Source of the DNA: Arcticibacter tournemirensis
GTDB lineage: Bacteria; Bacteroidota; Bacteroidia; Sphingobacteriales; Sphingobacteriaceae
Direction of reading: 5' to 3'
Length of the DNA: 64,000 nucleotides
Assembly: GCF_006716645.1 (NCBI RefSeq)
Contig: NZ_VFPL01000001.1
Location: 2,604,001-2,668,000, forward strand
Part shown: piece by piece, positions 4,761-15,827 of the stretch
How positions within the stretch are numbered: the first letter of the stretch is position 1
Layout of the letters: each line of letters opens with the position of its first letter
Program-made: the position numbers and the translations under genes
Notes under the pieces: model-generated
The model's input: only the letters and a program-made list of their open reading frames with translations
Told to the model about the DNA's origin: nothing
The model's database searches: none

Positions 4761-5048
4761 CTACTGCGGTGTGAGCGTCCATGCCTGAGCTCTTTCAGAG
4801 AAAAGTTTTCTGAGAGAAGGCCAGGTGGTTTTGAAATACTCCGACGATCTGTACGTTTCCAGATCTTCTTCAGAGCGCCAGTAACTTAACGTGAAATAGA
4901 GATCAGGGTTTTTGCTATCCCGCAGGAGGTCGAGTTTTACACAACCTTCAAATTGATGGATAATAACACGCTGGGTCTCGTAAAAGATGTGAAGAAACTC
5001 CTCACTTTTTTCGGGCTGAAAAGCCATTTTAACTACTCGTGTAATCAT
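4761..5048 (-). CDS. Antibiotic biosynthesis monooxygenase (ABM) domain protein
   Basis: A 95-residue protein with the ferredoxin-like ABM fold: an opening strand (MITRVVKMAF), the helix KSEEFLHIFYETQRVIIHQFEGC, then LYFTLSYWRSEEDLETYRSS and a terminal helix. Members act as small cofactor-free monooxygenases, quinol monooxygenases or heme-degrading enzymes. The heme-degrading subtype's key residues cannot be assigned here. Its start overlaps the stop of the upstream SAM hydrolase-like gene by 4 nt, so the two are translationally coupled. The substrate is unknown, and the family name does not imply antibiotic production. Confidence 0.82.
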   Translation of the reverse strand: MITRVVKMAFQPEKSEEFLHIFYETQRVIIHQFEGCVKLDLLRDSKNPDLYFTLSYWRSEEDLETYRSSEYFKTTWPSLRKLFSERAQAWTLTPQ

Positions 5049-8664: not shown

Positions 8665-9576
8665 ATGAGGTTTGATGTTACTATTCTTGGAAGCAGTTCT
8701 GCGACACCCATTTTTAACCGAAATCCAACTGCACAGATTCTCAATATAAACGAAAGACTTTTCCTTATAGACTGTGGCGAAGGTACCCAGCAGCAGTTGT
8801 TGCGTTATGGAATTAAATCACAGCGAATAAACCAGATATTCATTAGCCACTTACATGGCGACCATTACCTGGGCCTGGTAGGTTTACTCTCCTCATTGCA
8901 TCTGAACGGACGAGTCAAGCCAATGAGCATTTTCGGTCCTCCAGAGCTCAAAGAGATCCTTGATATTCAATTCAAATATTCGCAAACCGAGTTGCGGTAT
9001 CCCATCAACTTCCAGGCTACACACACCGAGAGCTCTGAACTGATCTTCGAGAACAACGACGTGATGGTAGAGACCATAATTCTCGAGCACCGGATACCCT
9101 GCACCGGATTCAAATTTACACAGAAGAAGAGGCTGCGGAAGATCATCCGCGAGAAAGTAGAAGCCCTTAATATTCCCCTCGACATGATTCCGCTGATAAA
9201 GCGAGGAATGGACTACACAGATAGTAAAGGGTTGGTGTATTTGTCAGCCGATCTCACTACTGATCCCGACGAACCAAAAACATACGCTTACTGTTCTGAT
9301 ACCATCTGTAACTGGAAATACCTCGATCAGATAAAAGGAGCGGATACGTTATATCATGAGTCGACCTTTATGCATGATATGCTGCAAAGGGCAGAAGACA
9401 CCTTTCATACCACCTCGCTGCAGGCCGCTGAAGTGGCATTGCGGGCAGAGGCAAAGCAACTGCTTTTAGGCCATTTTTCTGCACGGTACCGTGAGCTGGA
9501 GCCCATGCTTCTGGAAGCGAGAAGCCTCTTCCCAAATTCAAAGCTGGCCATTGAAGGCCATACCTTTGAGATTTAA
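8665..9576 (+). CDS. rnz: Ribonuclease Z
   Basis: A 303-residue short-form tRNase Z. The metallo-beta-lactamase motif HLHGDH is at 62-67, with later ligands in LEHRIPCTGFKF, SDT and LLGHFSARY. The N-terminal GSSSATPIFNRNPTAQIL block is typical. It cleaves the 3' trailer of tRNA precursors. The 3' end overlaps the convergent MCE gene by 4 nt. Confidence 0.95.
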   Translation: MRFDVTILGSSSATPIFNRNPTAQILNINERLFLIDCGEGTQQQLLRYGIKSQRINQIFISHLHGDHYLGLVGLLSSLHLNGRVKPMSIFGPPELKEILDIQFKYSQTELRYPINFQATHTESSELIFENNDVMVETIILEHRIPCTGFKFTQKKRLRKIIREKVEALNIPLDMIPLIKRGMDYTDSKGLVYLSADLTTDPDEPKTYAYCSDTICNWKYLDQIKGADTLYHESTFMHDMLQRAEDTFHTTSLQAAEVALRAEAKQLLLGHFSARYRELEPMLLEARSLFPNSKLAIEGHTFEI

Positions 9577-10517
9577 TCTTTTTTACCGCCGAACACCGAG
9601 AAACTTACGTAGCGGCCTGGATGGGCTTTCAGATCAAGCATCAGCTTATCAAGGTTCTCAGCAGCATTATTCAGGTTATTATATAAGCCGTCGTCGTTAA
9701 TCAGTTTGCCTAAGGATCCCTGGCCTGCGTTTACCTTATTAACCGCTGCCTGCATATCGGCCACCGCTTTGTCAGCATTGCGGATCGTCTGGTCAAAGTT
9801 AGCTCTTGCAAACTTATCAGTTACAGTTTCCAGGTTACCCATAATGGCGCTGATGCGCTGGTTATTATTCTTGAAGTTACCCGATATCGATTCGAGGTTA
9901 GCAAAAATAGCAGTGAGACGGTTTCCCTGCGTTCCCACCATGCCATCAACCTTACGCGTAGTAGATTCAAGCGTTTGTAAAATATGAGCGATGCTGGCAA
10001 AACTACTGTTAAAGTTTTGCTGGAACTCAGGGCTAATTGTATTATTTAAAGAAGTAAGGATCGAGTCGAGACGTGTGATCATCGCTTCTGCCTTCTGCTG
10101 AACCGGTTTTACCTGCTGTAAGAGGTCTTTCTGGATATTGGAATTCAGTGTGTCGCCGCTCACAGCATATTTGCTACTGTTGCCAAGCTCAAAAACAATG
10201 GCTTTGCTACCCAGCAGGCTGGTGCTTTCCAGCCTGGCCACCGTATTTCGCGGGATCTCGTAGTCGGGATTAATCTTAAGCTGCGCCATGATCCGTCCGT
10301 TTTCCAGTAATCTTAAATTAGATACCCGCCCGATCTGGAAGCCATTTACGAGCACTGGATTAGAGACCGCCAGACCCTCAACATTGTCGTAAGCAGCATA
10401 CAATTCCTGCTCTCTGGAGAAAACATCGTTTCCCTTAAGGAAACTGTATCCAAGGATTAAAATAGCAATGGCAACTGCTGCCAGTATACCAACCTTAGTT
10501 TCATTAGTAATTTTCAT
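9573..10517 (-). CDS. MlaD/MCE family lipid-transport protein
   Basis: A 314-residue protein with one N-terminal membrane helix at about 9-27 (VGILAAVAIAILILGYSFLKG) and an MCE domain at about 38-115 (YDNVEGLAVSNPVLVNGFQIG, SLLGSKAIVFELG). A long helical C-terminus (about 140-300) follows, rich in N, Q and A with heptad-like spacing. MCE proteins form rings that carry lipids across the periplasm and normally work with MlaE permease and MlaF ATPase. Neither is beside this gene, so it is an orphan in this window. A single MCE domain with a coiled-coil tail resembles the needle-like architecture seen in other MCE proteins. Confidence 0.9.
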   Translation of the reverse strand: MKITNETKVGILAAVAIAILILGYSFLKGNDVFSREQELYAAYDNVEGLAVSNPVLVNGFQIGRVSNLRLLENGRIMAQLKINPDYEIPRNTVARLESTSLLGSKAIVFELGNSSKYAVSGDTLNSNIQKDLLQQVKPVQQKAEAMITRLDSILTSLNNTISPEFQQNFNSSFASIAHILQTLESTTRKVDGMVGTQGNRLTAIFANLESISGNFKNNNQRISAIMGNLETVTDKFARANFDQTIRNADKAVADMQAAVNKVNAGQGSLGKLINDDGLYNNLNNAAENLDKLMLDLKAHPGRYVSFSVFGGKKD

Positions 10518-10883: not shown

Positions 10884-11687
10884 ATGCTGCGTCTGGGCCT
10901 CGTCATTGTTATCTTAAGCCTTGTAAATCCACTTTTTGCACAGGATGTACATGATGGTTCACGTTTGACCGCGCTTGGAAATACAGGAGTTGCACTTCAG
11001 GATGTGTGGACCCTGCAATCAAACCAGGCCGGTATTGCTTCTATAAAACGGCCGGTGGCTGCGATTGCATGTGAAAGCAGCTTTTTCAATTCAGCGATCA
11101 CCACCCAATCGGCAATTTTTGCATTTCCATATCATCGGAATGTATTCGGATTTAGCTTGCGGAGCTACGGAATGGACGAATACAGGGAACAGAAGATAGG
11201 CTTTGCCTTCGCACGAGGTTTTGGTGAAACTGTTTTTGCTTCTTTATCCTTTAACATTCATCAACTAAAGATCAGCAGATACGGGAGTGCTGGAGCGTGG
11301 TCGGTGGAGGCAGGATTGCAATATAAAGCCGGAGAAAATCTTATTATTGGAGCTCATATAGCAAATCCCAACCGGAGTGCTTATCAAGCAGACCTGAATG
11401 CTATAGTTCCGGTATTGTTCGAATTGGGGGCCTCTTTACGATTTACCGATAAGGTATTATTGAGCAGTGCTATAGCAAAAGAACTTGACTCTGCCGCTGG
11501 GTTCAAGTGCGGCATTGAATACAATATTATGAGCGAAGTATTCCTTAGAGGTGGTGCAGTAACAAACCCATTCAGGCAATCCGCAGGATTCGGGTATAAG
11601 TATCATTCCCTCAATGTTGACATAGCTGTTACATCGCATCCTGACCTGGGGTTTTCACCGCAGATATCTTTAGGCTATGAATTTTAA
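10884..11687 (+). CDS. PorV/PorQ-like outer-membrane barrel protein
   Basis: A 267-residue protein with a signal peptide (about 1-20, ending PLFAQ), then the PorV/PorQ/FadL-like opening GSRLTALGNTGVALQDVWTLQSNQAGIA. A series of alternating strands ends in an aromatic C-terminal strand (PQISLGYEF), as in outer-membrane barrels. PorV and PorQ are T9SS accessory proteins, but this one is shorter and more divergent, so only the broad family is assigned. It overlaps the next gene by 11 nt and lies two genes upstream of comEC, suggesting it works with them at the outer membrane. Confidence 0.7.
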   Translation: MLRLGLVIVILSLVNPLFAQDVHDGSRLTALGNTGVALQDVWTLQSNQAGIASIKRPVAAIACESSFFNSAITTQSAIFAFPYHRNVFGFSLRSYGMDEYREQKIGFAFARGFGETVFASLSFNIHQLKISRYGSAGAWSVEAGLQYKAGENLIIGAHIANPNRSAYQADLNAIVPVLFELGASLRFTDKVLLSSAIAKELDSAAGFKCGIEYNIMSEVFLRGGAVTNPFRQSAGFGYKYHSLNVDIAVTSHPDLGFSPQISLGYEF

Positions 11688-13725
11688 GAGAATCAGTGGT
11701 CTTCCTTTATTCTTGTCAATCTGCATCTGCAACTCATACGCGCAAATAGAAAATGAACGCGAAACGGAAGTCGTAATTGAATCAGTAGCCGGGAACTTGG
11801 ATGAGAACTATGACTACTCGGAGTTGCAGGAACATCTGGAGCAGTATCTTAAGAATCCGCTTGATCTGAATACCGCTTCCATGGAAGATCTGAAAGAATT
11901 TATATTTCTGAGTCCCATTCAAATAAATAATTTATTGAGACATCGTTTGGAGAATGGCAATTTTGCAGAACTGCAGGAGCTGCAAACTATCGATGCCTTC
12001 GACCCCGAAACGATTAGTAAACTACTCCCTTATATCACATTGAAGCGCAGAGAAAGCCTAAAAGACTTACGGCTCAATGATCTTCGCCGCAGGAGCGACA
12101 ATGATCTGATGTTCACTTACTCACAGCCTCTTCAAAAACAACAAGGGTATTTGCTTTCGGATAGCGCAGGGCACTCTCATTATGAGGGGAACAATGTTCG
12201 TTTTCTTACACGCTACCGTTATCATTTCGGAAAGAAGCTCTTCGCAGCGCTCACTATGGAGAAGGATGCCGGAGAAAAACTCTTTCCAGGACAAACAGGA
12301 CTGGATTTCAATTCTGTAACTATATTCTACAAGGGTGAAGGCAGGATCAGGAAACTCGTTCTAGGTGATTATTTGCTGCAATTTGGGCAGGGTCTTGGCA
12401 TGTGGTCGGGATTGAGTTTTGGCAAGGGTGCGGCAATTGCGTCAATAGCAAAGCAACAAAGCGGGCTAAAGGCTTATACCTCGACCAATGAAGTACAGTT
12501 CTTAAGGGGCACAGCAGCTAGTGTTGGCTTCGGAAAGTTTGAGGTCACGCCATTTATTTCTACGAGAAGAGTGGATGGATCGTTATCTGAGGAGGATTCA
12601 TCGGGTGTTGTCCAGAGTATTGTTTCATTAGGTCAAAGCGGACTTCACCGTACAGCGACGGAGATAGAGAATCATAATAGTATTCAACAAACGGTATATG
12701 GCTCAAATATCCAATATTCAGATAATTCTTTTCGGGCCGGCGCTGTTGTATACAAAACTGGTTTCAATAAGGAATTTCAGCCAGGAAAGTATCTGTACGA
12801 TCAATTTGGTTTTACCGGTTCGTCGATAACGAATGTCAGCTTTTACTATAACTATAATTTGCAAAATACCTATTTCTTTGGGGAAGTCGCCCATACTCCT
12901 GGTTATGGATTTGCGTGGTCGAACGGGGCAATGGTCGCGCTTTCTAAAGAGGTCTCAGCCGTGATACTTTACAGGCACTATCAAAAAAACTTTTATTCTT
13001 TTTTCAGCCAGGGCGTGTCGGAAGGTAGCCCAGGCACCGCTGAAGATGGTCTTTATACCGGACTTGTGATCAGCCCGGATCCTAAAACTGAATTCTTGAT
13101 TTATACTGATGTATTTAGATTTCCCTGGCTGAAGTACGGAGTGGACGCGCCGTCGCGGGGGTATGAAGCGTTTTCACAGTTTTCTTATTCTCCACGTAAG
13201 AGTTTTAAACTTACTTTAAGGTATAAGCTAAAAAACAAACCGGAGAATGATGATGGAAATCAAACAGTCCACTTCCTGCAGGATGTCCAAAAACAGAATT
13301 TCAGAGTTGAGCTCAATTATAAAACCGGATCATTTCAGCTCAGGAGCAGGGTAGAAGCAGCTCTTTATAAAAAAGGTCAGGCAAGAGAACAAGGTCTGTT
13401 GATGTACCAGGATGTCATTTACAAACCGATGAAATCCAGGGTAAGCGGGAACTTAAGACTAGCCTTATTTGATACGGATGGTTTTAATTCACGAGTTTAT
13501 GCATTTGAAAATGACCTCTTGTATAGTTATTCCATTCCCGGGTACCAAAATGGCGGCGTACGCTTTTATCTGAACGCAAAATACGGGATAAATCGAAATA
13601 CAGACCTGTCCGCAAGATATGCTATCAGCAGTTATACAAATTGCGAAGAGATAGGTTCGGGACTGGATAAGATAAATGGTCGTAACAAATCGGATTTTAA
13701 AATGCAGCTTCGATTTCAATTTTAA
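11677..13725 (+). CDS. ComEA-like helix-hairpin-helix protein with large barrel-like C-terminal body
   Basis: A 682-residue protein with a signal peptide at about 1-22 (ending NSYAQ). A tandem helix-hairpin-helix module lies at about 55-120 (PLDLNTASMEDLKEFIFLSP, NNLLRHRLENGNFAELQELQ, ISKLLPYITL), closely patterned on the DNA-binding domain of ComEA. The hairpin glycines (GxG) usual in ComEA are replaced (LSPIQ and AFDPE), so DNA contact may differ. The remaining 550 residues are alternating amphipathic strands with many Y/F and end in KMQLRFQF, a typical barrel C-terminus. It overlaps both neighbours and its last base is shared with the comEC start. A role as outer-membrane DNA receptor is inferred, not shown. 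Confidence 0.75.
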   Translation: MNFKRISGLPLFLSICICNSYAQIENERETEVVIESVAGNLDENYDYSELQEHLEQYLKNPLDLNTASMEDLKEFIFLSPIQINNLLRHRLENGNFAELQELQTIDAFDPETISKLLPYITLKRRESLKDLRLNDLRRRSDNDLMFTYSQPLQKQQGYLLSDSAGHSHYEGNNVRFLTRYRYHFGKKLFAALTMEKDAGEKLFPGQTGLDFNSVTIFYKGEGRIRKLVLGDYLLQFGQGLGMWSGLSFGKGAAIASIAKQQSGLKAYTSTNEVQFLRGTAASVGFGKFEVTPFISTRRVDGSLSEEDSSGVVQSIVSLGQSGLHRTATEIENHNSIQQTVYGSNIQYSDNSFRAGAVVYKTGFNKEFQPGKYLYDQFGFTGSSITNVSFYYNYNLQNTYFFGEVAHTPGYGFAWSNGAMVALSKEVSAVILYRHYQKNFYSFFSQGVSEGSPGTAEDGLYTGLVISPDPKTEFLIYTDVFRFPWLKYGVDAPSRGYEAFSQFSYSPRKSFKLTLRYKLKNKPENDDGNQTVHFLQDVQKQNFRVELNYKTGSFQLRSRVEAALYKKGQAREQGLLMYQDVIYKPMKSRVSGNLRLALFDTDGFNSRVYAFENDLLYSYSIPGYQNGGVRFYLNAKYGINRNTDLSARYAISSYTNCEEIGSGLDKINGRNKSDFKMQLRFQF

Positions 13726-15827
13726 TGCCTATGGATTTTACAGGCGGTATGATATTCATAAGGATACTTCTTCCTGCAATTGCCGGGACATGGATCGGGC
13801 TTTCCTTGCCTGCTTCCGGGTTTATAGTCGCGGTATTTCTGACTGTATGCCTGTTCCTCTTCATTATGCTGATTGCATGCCATTGCTGGTACCGTCGTTT
13901 GAAACTTTATTTGCATCGCTGGCTGCCCGGATTAATTGTGCAAGTCCTGGTTGTGTTTGTATTCAGCTCTATAGCCTTAAGCCGCAATCCACTACTACGC
14001 GATGATCATTTTAGTAAGAACAAAGCCGATGTACTGATTGCCGAAATCAGCTCAGAGCCAAATCTTTCTAATAAAATATGGAGGTTTGAAGTATCAGTCA
14101 GGCAGGGACTAAGAGAAGATTGCTTTGTCCCTTTAAGTGGTAAAATGTTGATTACGGTTTATGCCGATACGTCAGGCAGAAATTATGGAAATGGCGACTA
14201 CCTACTACTTCCATATGACTTTAGTGAAACACAAGTTTCCCTGAACCCTTTTGAATTTAATTATAAGCAATATCTTGCTAACAAAGGCATTTTTCATCAG
14301 GCCTTTTTTTACAGCAACAGACTAAAAACGTTAAATATATCTGCCAAAAAGAGCCTTGGTTGCCTCGTTCTAACATTGAGGCAAAGAATGGTATGGAAAT
14401 TTAAACAATATATTAATAATGAAGATGCGGCAGCCATTGGGTCGACTCTCATACTTGGGTACAAAGCGAGCTTAAGTGAGGAAATCTTAAATGCTTATTC
14501 AAGAACTGGCGTCATGCATGTGTTGTCAGTATCAGGTATGCATGTGGCTATGCTGTTGGTTATGCTGACCTGTATTTTATGGTTTCTGAGACAACGAAAA
14601 GGATTGAGGGTATTACAATCGCTGTTGATTATTCTGATCATCTGGTTTTACTCATTCCTAACCGGTTTCTCTGCTGCTGTTTGCCGGGCTGCACTTATGA
14701 TTAGCTTTGTGATAATCGGGAGAGCTTTTAACCGCGACAATAATTCCACTAACAGTGTTGCAGCATCAGCCGTAATCCTTTTAGTGTATAATCCATGCTT
14801 TTTAAAAGATATAGGATTTCAGTTGTCTTTTTTAGCTGTGTTCGGTCTGATATACTTATATCCAATGGTATACAAATTAGTTGTGATTCAGAATTGGATA
14901 GGAGATAAGCTATGGTCGTTTACTGCCATATCGCTTTCAGCGCAGATATTTACCTTTCCGCTATGCATGTATTACTTCAACCAATTCCCGCTATATTTTC
15001 TTATTAGCAACTTATTTATCGTATTACCGGTTACTCTGGTAATGTACGCCGGGATTGCGTTTATGTTAATCCCTTTTGAACCCCTCTCAAAAGTCCTCGG
15101 CTGGATCCTTGAGAAAACGATTGTCTTTATAAACGAGGGATTGTTCCTAATTGAAAGGTTTCCTTATTCGGCTATTCACAGCCAAAGGTTCGGCTTCTGG
15201 TATTATGCTTCTATCTATCTCATTATTGCATTGTTAATCTTTTCCTTCCAATATAAAAGAAAATTGTTTTTCTACGGCTCACTATTGGTCGTCTTTCTTC
15301 TTACCTCAGTAAGTTCACTACAATCCCTGCGACAGGAACAAAAGAAGAGTATCATGTTTTTCAGCGTGCGAAAGAATATTGCAGTAGGCTTTTTTAATGG
15401 AAGGAAAGGCGATATAGTTACGGGTCTTAACAGAAACAGCAAAGCCTTTACTTACTCTGTTAGTCCGTTGATTGATGCAAGGAACCTTAGAATAAACAAT
15501 TGCTATCCTATCACTGCAGGGTTCAATAACAACTGCTTGTTTTCCGACGGACATTTTTATCAGTTCCTGGGATGCCGTTTACTGATCTGGGACAGGACAT
15601 TTAACTTTAAGTGCTATAAAAGAAAGGCCGTGGTTCAGCATCTGTTACTTAGCGGAAATCCTGTTATCGACATCAAGAGCCTGCGGCAATATGTGCAGTT
15701 TGACAGCCTTATAATAGGGGGCGACAATTCAGATTACCGTGTAAGAAAGTGGACGAGAGAAGCAGGGGTACTTGGAATTAAATACTATGTATTGAAGAAT
15801 GCACCGGCGATTGAATTGTCTTTATAG
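13725..15827 (+). CDS. comEC: ComEC/Rec2 family DNA-uptake channel
   Basis: A 700-residue membrane protein. Two N-terminal helices and a DUF4131-like soluble region (about 75-200) precede the Competence domain with its signature GVMHVLSVSGMHVAMLLVM (about 261-280). The conserved FQLSFLAVFGLIYL comes later, with some eight to ten helices in all. ComEC carries single-stranded DNA across the inner membrane during transformation. The C-terminal 180 residues occupy the place of the metallo-beta-lactamase domain but show no HxHxDH motif, so that domain is probably not a nuclease here. Start: ATG at 13725 overlaps the previous stop by one base; the in-frame ATG at 13731 is an alternative. Confidence 0.88.
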   Translation: MPMDFTGGMIFIRILLPAIAGTWIGLSLPASGFIVAVFLTVCLFLFIMLIACHCWYRRLKLYLHRWLPGLIVQVLVVFVFSSIALSRNPLLRDDHFSKNKADVLIAEISSEPNLSNKIWRFEVSVRQGLREDCFVPLSGKMLITVYADTSGRNYGNGDYLLLPYDFSETQVSLNPFEFNYKQYLANKGIFHQAFFYSNRLKTLNISAKKSLGCLVLTLRQRMVWKFKQYINNEDAAAIGSTLILGYKASLSEEILNAYSRTGVMHVLSVSGMHVAMLLVMLTCILWFLRQRKGLRVLQSLLIILIIWFYSFLTGFSAAVCRAALMISFVIIGRAFNRDNNSTNSVAASAVILLVYNPCFLKDIGFQLSFLAVFGLIYLYPMVYKLVVIQNWIGDKLWSFTAISLSAQIFTFPLCMYYFNQFPLYFLISNLFIVLPVTLVMYAGIAFMLIPFEPLSKVLGWILEKTIVFINEGLFLIERFPYSAIHSQRFGFWYYASIYLIIALLIFSFQYKRKLFFYGSLLVVFLLTSVSSLQSLRQEQKKSIMFFSVRKNIAVGFFNGRKGDIVTGLNRNSKAFTYSVSPLIDARNLRINNCYPITAGFNNNCLFSDGHFYQFLGCRLLIWDRTFNFKCYKRKAVVQHLLLSGNPVIDIKSLRQYVQFDSLIIGGDNSDYRVRKWTREAGVLGIKYYVLKNAPAIELSL

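Follow-up and report, generated by a model that had tools for sequence, protein, structure and literature searches.

The stretch of DNA analysed here, a window of 64,000 nucleotides (nt) from Arcticibacter tournemirensis (genome G000 in our set), carries on its plus strand three genes that encode a PorV-like protein, a large outer membrane barrel protein with an N-terminal helix-hairpin-helix (HHH) module, and the competence protein ComEC. We propose, with a probability of roughly 0.6, that the PorV-like protein and the HHH barrel constitute an outer membrane module of the Bacteroidota transformation pathway, and most likely the DNA passage itself. Judged from a comparison of many genomes, the two barrels seem to be an undescribed outer membrane part of the DNA-uptake machinery of this phylum. 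The computed support comprises the predicted anatomy of both proteins, the old pairing of the PorV-like protein with the barrel, an operon shared with ComEC in Sphingobacteriaceae, losses that coincide with those of ComEC, a distribution that nearly excludes another transformation gene, and TGA codons that occur jointly in these genes in one genome.

The end-to-end overlap of the three genes noted in the original prediction was confirmed (11 nt between the PorV-like and HHH-barrel genes, 1 nt between the latter and comEC; Table 1). For the 682 amino acid (aa) protein, AlphaFold2 predicted the expected combination of a barrel, here with 24 strands, behind an N-terminal HHH module (predicted local distance difference test, pLDDT, 84). 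In all 53 aligned sequences, the window's protein included, the strand residues carry a net charge above zero, which ranges from 6 to 27 with a median of 17. The best Foldseek and VIA matches of the barrel were a chain of the Mtr complex, which we take to be MtrB, and the FimD/PapC ushers. These are large barrels of similar size, but their identity to the HHH barrel is only about 10% and neither a haem partner nor an usher plug was noticed for the latter; the common barrel shape shows no common function. A Plug or carboxypeptidase-regulatory domain was not matched in the protein up to E 1 in Pfam and, by the Plug domain, it does not classify as a TonB-dependent receptor.

The product of the first gene was predicted by AlphaFold2 to adopt a 14-strand FadL/PorV fold with an N-terminal hatch (pLDDT 92), which bears out its earlier description as PorV-like. 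Its profile is similar to PorV (6h3i_F, E 5.7e-5), and it scores 43.1 bits with the NCBIfam PorV/PorQ family, below the curated cut-off of 90. With 267 aa, it is shorter than the SprA-associated PorV and the PorV-fold chains in Bacteroidota entries of the β-barrel assembly machinery (9n2d_B, 9hjm_F and 9hiv_F), which have 345–406 residues. It further differs from PorV in that its partner is the HHH barrel and its distribution is independent of SprA.

The HHH module belongs to the same family as that of ComEA (8dss, 8dfk). Pfam HHH_3 (PF12836) matches residues 61–121 with 38.6 bits, the module matches the ComEA structure 8dss with a profile E value of 4.9e-5, and all seven matches of a PDB search with the barrel profile are limited to this region. 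The NCBIfam comEA model (TIGR01259) gives 26 bits and does not reach its cut-off of 152. ComEA is a small secreted or membrane-tethered protein with GxG hairpins and a basic module, whereas the module studied here is joined to a 24-strand barrel, is acidic and lacks GxG hairpins. In an alignment of 20 sequences, its hairpins resemble FLSPLQI and IDGFD rather than GIG. Two sets of loci were compared: 80 named loci, most of which belong to Sphingobacteriaceae according to their record titles, and 60 broad loci, hand-picked across families of the phylum. GxG is absent from both hairpins in all 80 named loci, and is found in hairpin 1 of one and hairpin 2 of four of the 60 broad loci. The net charge of residues 45–122 has a median of -4 in 79 named rows and of -5 in 59 broad rows, and residues 25–125 of the window's protein carry a charge of -12. 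The N-terminal domain of an outer membrane barrel is normally located on the periplasmic side and, by this analogy, the HHH module probably faces the periplasm. The original prediction had regarded the module as a ComEA-like domain that seems fused to an outer membrane barrel and could take DNA at the cell surface. Because of the acidic charge and the missing GxG hairpins, a surface DNA binder was rejected, and the residues of the module do not show such a ComEA fusion.

The likely ComEA equivalent is instead a separate protein of 303 aa with three HHH motifs, encoded elsewhere in the genome (G000:C1:4813466-4814374). This assignment from sequence is based on its N-terminal hydrophobic stretch and on its GIG-type hairpin (consensus GIGPAFASRI), in which neither glycine varies among 18 aligned sequences. 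ComEC itself shows the Competence domain PF03772 with 197 bits (cut-off 23) as well as DUF4131, and scores 108 bits with the ComEC/Rec2 equivalog TIGR00361, below the cut-off of 190. A C-terminal metallo-beta-lactamase domain (Lactamase_B) found no Pfam match in ComEC; according to one study, the ComEC proteins of transformable species occur with and without this domain (PMC6299819).

The barrel is old in Bacteroidota. At E 1e-10, matches were obtained in 222 of the 296 phylum genomes analysed, covering 106 of 140 genera. The protein was also matched in 56 of 60 relatives, in some of them only via the HHH part of another protein. G004 and G001 fall into one genus group with the window's genome, and G018 into the same family. 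In the 80 named loci, ComEC lies directly 3' of the barrel in 71, the PorV-like gene directly 5' in 51, and both in 43. In the 60 broad loci, the PorV-like gene adjoins the barrel in 43 (same strand, overlapping or at most 700 nt apart) and ComEC in two, both of the window's family. Outside this family, the PorV-like gene is adjacent in 42 of 58 loci and ComEC in 0 of 58, including one locus (L141) in which the contig ends 313 nt downstream and ComEC could not show; likewise, 17 further loci of a family designated f25 have the PorV-like gene upstream in 17 cases and ComEC adjacent in none. Thus, the old unit is the PorV-like protein plus the barrel, and ComEC joined it in one family, Sphingobacteriaceae. 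The trio of the original prediction is therefore split in most relatives with respect to ComEC, but not with respect to the PorV-like gene. Among 27 named loci without a PorV-like match, 18 (between L064 and L105, mostly Pedobacter) have upstream a small protein that looks by eye like a MerR-type regulator, together with a divergent alaS-like gene, also recognised by eye. A single in-frame TAA interrupts the barrel of Pedobacter fastidiosus (L072:6916-6918), and ComEC is in three pieces in L081.

The gene neighbourhood also bears on the idea that the pair serves the competence pathway without conducting DNA, by secreting or assembling a surface DNA receptor or a pilus-like factor in the manner of ushers or the type 9 translocon. 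We consider this unlikely. In the broad set, the pair has no further constant neighbour: the cluster that ranks next in frequency, DUF4835 (two members tested), is on the opposite strand and occurs in 19 of 60 loci. A role of the pair as an accessory of type 9 secretion, which the similarity of its PorV-like member to PorV by both profile and fold could suggest, is far less probable. This was rejected on the distribution of the barrel versus SprA. SprA_N was matched in 228 of the 296 phylum genomes; of the 68 without a SprA match, 20 were named and 19 of these contain the barrel, whereas all 29 genomes of family f26 and all six of family f22 contain SprA but no barrel at 1e-10.

A comparable role has been proposed for other proteins in Riemerella anatipestifer. 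According to the report on a transposon screen (PMC8459023), four essential genes lack homology to well-characterised transformation proteins and a unique machinery was proposed. The essential genes include RS04915, for an outer membrane protein with a carboxypeptidase-regulatory domain, its operon partner RS04920 with DUF5689, RS02645 for an HHH protein, and a gene whose product has DUF1343. By its description there, RS02645, with three HHH domains, resembles the 303-aa protein. In another report, transformation is impaired in mutants of tonBA or tonBB, with tonBB acting through iron shortage in the authors' view (PMC8383284). RS04915 and RS04920 parallel the HHH barrel and the PorV-like protein in that an outer membrane barrel and its partner are proposed to act on DNA before it reaches ComEC. 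However, barrels of the RS04915 type are about 910 aa long, in most cases carry a carboxypeptidase-regulatory domain, and have a partner with DUF5689; there is neither an HHH module nor a PorV-like gene. An operon of this make-up was recovered in several genomes, and a profile (A3) was built from six of them; the identity with RS04915 is based on domain make-up and gene order, not on Riemerella sequence. Only A3 matches with E values of at most 1e-160 were counted as orthologues; the matches that followed were at 2.5e-81 or worse in one search and at 2.0e-75 or worse in f25. DUF5689 was rejected as a marker for this operon because it is too broad (135 of 296 genomes); the DUF5689 match of the window's genome sits in a locus that looks SusC/SusD-like by eye, and no A3 match at E 1e-60 was found in this genome.

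The HHH barrel and the Riemerella-type gene nearly exclude each other. In the window's class (73 genomes), 24 genomes have only the barrel, 39 only the Riemerella-type gene, six both and four neither (Fisher p 6e-10; p 6e-6 at genus level), with a barrel threshold of E <1e-30, by which G266 and G168 with weak matches of about 1e-11 were counted as lacking it. The families f22 and f26, which provide most of the Riemerella-type-only group, may correspond to Weeksellaceae and Flavobacteriaceae. In f25, which comprises 88 genomes from 87 genera, the barrel is present in 36, and 38 have the Riemerella-type gene, not including G415 with its match at 2e-75. Thirty-four genomes have the barrel only, 36 the Riemerella-type gene only, two both (G145, G350) and 16 neither (Fisher p 7e-10). 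An rpoB tree was calculated for 80 of these 88 genomes, excluding G398 and G426 (no rpoB match), G374, G381, G384 and G414 (partial rpoB), and G358 and G387 (low completeness). It shows few switches, the Riemerella-type gene alone being found in two large clades and one single genome. For correlated change on 79 tips, after removal of the long-branched G415, the likelihood ratio was 19.7 (p 6e-4), in a type of test that is easily moved by single old events. The exclusion is thus suggestive. In four loci (L189:7407-11582, L190:7242-11404, L192:5897-9756, L193:6952-10746), the Riemerella-type barrel gene adjoins a gene for a secreted-endonuclease-like protein, assigned by Exo_endo_phos_3 (PF19580) for L190 and by eye for the others; this nuclease could belong to the Riemerella-type uptake system.

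In f25, the loss of ComEC coincides with the absence of both outer membrane modules. Five of the 88 f25 genomes are without a ComEC match (G361, G363, G376, G395, G406), and all five are among the 16 with neither module, compared with 0 of the 72 with a module (Fisher p 1.1e-4). A profile for the ComEA-like protein (A4) found no match at 1e-12 in six of the 16 module-less genomes versus five of the 72 others (p 0.004). On the rpoB tree, the ComEC losses need five changes and three ComEC-less genomes stand next to barrel-bearing sisters (G395/G352, G406/G380, G376/G417). The module-less rows are scattered, with 13 changes for 14 rows, and therefore look like separate losses. Independent pairs ran 5 to 0 in 123 of 200 pairings, the module changing in the same direction in 4.6 pairs on average and in the opposite direction in 0.0. 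Assembly gaps do not explain the absence of ComEC in G363 (1 contig) and G406 (4 contigs), because both genomes are 99% complete. These data have to be set against the rather improbable explanation that the barrel is a channel for another solute or a lipid, with the ComEC operon as a chance neighbourhood and the shared losses as general genome decay. The absence of both modules from all five ComEC-less genomes, two of them almost complete, argues against such a channel, as do the near-exclusion with the Riemerella-type gene and the TGA pattern of four genes described below. In the phylum set, ComEC had no match in eight of 296 genomes, i.e. G312 and seven of family f57; the latter (G219, G259, G267, G298, G310, G322, G330) have no barrel match either, while SprA was matched.

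A connection that does not depend on gene order is provided by G377, a genome of f25. Its genes for the PorV-like protein, the barrel, ComEC and the ComEA-like protein contain 8, 14, 5 and 3 in-frame TGA codons, respectively, but no TAA or TAG over 263, 667, 644 and 281 codons. Within the profile-matched cores, 13 TGA codons are located in the barrel, four in ComEC and two in the ComEA-like protein; the first barrel match held 12. The PorV-like protein was identified from its position and from a weak match to the profile (E 9.8e-8 if TGA is translated as tryptophan; not at 1e-10). In 13 other sampled genes of G377, including rpoB, no TGA was found inside ordinary open reading frames. Plain decay of the four genes was rejected, since every in-frame stop is TGA. 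In relatives, the corresponding columns hold mostly Leu, Ile, Phe, Tyr and Val, with one Asn column in ComEC. Tryptophan is enriched at these columns in the barrel (0.077 versus 0.016 at all sites) and in ComEC (0.044 versus 0.018), but not in the PorV-like protein (0.010 versus 0.010) or the ComEA-like protein (0 versus 0.007). That TGA encodes tryptophan in G377 is not proven, and no tRNAs were found in the three searched stretches of this genome; a UGA decoding specific for this gene set is possible. As the TGA trait is common to all four genes, it groups the PorV-like protein and the barrel with ComEC and the ComEA-like protein. In the same scan, other loci showed single TGA codons only, in ComEC of L077 and in L285, there in an HHH match located where the ComEA-like frame ends. 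A further G377 frame with four TGA codons (L296:6831-7277) was taken for no gene; it partly overlaps a 227-aa open reading frame on the opposite strand.

Table 1. Positions of the genes, domains and TGA-bearing frames discussed in the text (window coordinates unless a locus is given)
Feature	Position	Strand	Description
PorV-like protein, 267 aa	10884..11687	+	14-strand FadL/PorV-fold barrel with N-terminal hatch helices
HHH-barrel protein, 682 aa	11677..13725	+	predicted large outer membrane barrel with N-terminal HHH module
Degenerate acidic HHH module, aa 61-121 of HHH-barrel protein	11857..12039	+	
24-strand barrel domain, aa 140-682 of HHH-barrel protein	12094..13722	+	strand-residue net charge +13
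ComEC, 700 aa	13725..15827	+	DUF4131 and Competence domains
Competence (ComEC channel) domain PF03772, aa 242-508 of ComEC	14448..15248	+	
TGA-bearing frames of G377	L296:3176-5904; L297:1997-3928 (-); L298:1830-2672		three separate places

Upstream of the PorV-like gene, the minus strand encodes a protein that is MCE/MlaD-like by eye (9573-10517), and Rfam gave no match between positions 5000 and 20000 of the window.

Taken together, the operon, the shared loss and the TGA codons shared in one genome uphold the functional tie of the barrel to ComEC. The proposed role in DNA uptake gained independent support from the near-exclusion, the shared ComEC loss and the TGA codons of G377, while its earlier version with the HHH module as DNA binder at the surface did not stand. 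In the model that we prefer, double-stranded DNA would cross the outer membrane through the 24-strand barrel, the strands of which are positively charged. On the periplasmic side, the acidic HHH module would plug the barrel or serve for docking. The PorV-fold barrel may act as a lateral partner, similar to PorV for SprA or the PorV-fold subunit for BamA in Bacteroidota. The DNA would next meet the separate ComEA-like protein with its three HHH motifs and then enter through ComEC. That the proteins form a complex and conduct DNA is inferred in this model, and so are the function of the HHH module and the energy source.

Several observations weigh against this model. The HHH module has no hallmarks of DNA binding, and outside Sphingobacteriaceae ComEC is adjacent to the pair in none of the loci compared. 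With the few switches available, independent pairs give no significance for the barrel versus the Riemerella-type gene (median p 1), and seven genomes contain both modules (G094, G119, G145, G210, G282, G290, G350). The sign test on the ComEC pairs has a median p of 0.0625, which is the minimum for five pairs, so that 0.05 is out of reach; the ComEC-less G395 is only 86% complete. Eleven of the 16 module-less f25 genomes keep a ComEC match, that of G374 being a fragment (E 6e-9). ComEC was also matched without either module in G019 and G313 of the window's family and in G186, and next to a weak barrel match only in G266 of the same family; conversely, the barrel is present in G312 without a ComEC match. 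The phylogeny-corrected tests are suggestive, not decisive. In addition, we know of no transformable organism that has been shown to hold the module; Porphyromonas gingivalis has been reported to be transformable (work cited in PMC8459023).

In the literature that was searched, the route of DNA across the outer membrane of Bacteroidota seems to be an open question. Searches on PorV and competence, DUF5689 and DNA uptake, UGA and competence or Bacteroidota, and transformable Sphingobacteria or Chitinophaga returned nothing that we recognised on this pair, and PMC13092985 and PMC8629427 contributed nothing further. A candidate gate can now be named, with matches in 222 of the 296 genomes, and a likely true ComEA is pointed out among the HHH proteins. 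A more tentative extension, which we regard as possible rather than probable, is that the pair represents a third kind of outer membrane gate for DNA import, in addition to the secretin of type IV pili and the receptor of the Riemerella type. This gate would consist of a positively walled 24-strand barrel with an acidic HHH plug and a PorV-fold flank, would be old in Bacteroidota and would have given way to the Riemerella-type gene on several occasions; in G377, where the set is written with UGA, uptake may be switched by UGA decoding. If the pair is the DNA passage, deletion of the barrel or of the PorV-like gene should block transformation in those Bacteroidota in which the Riemerella-type gene is missing.
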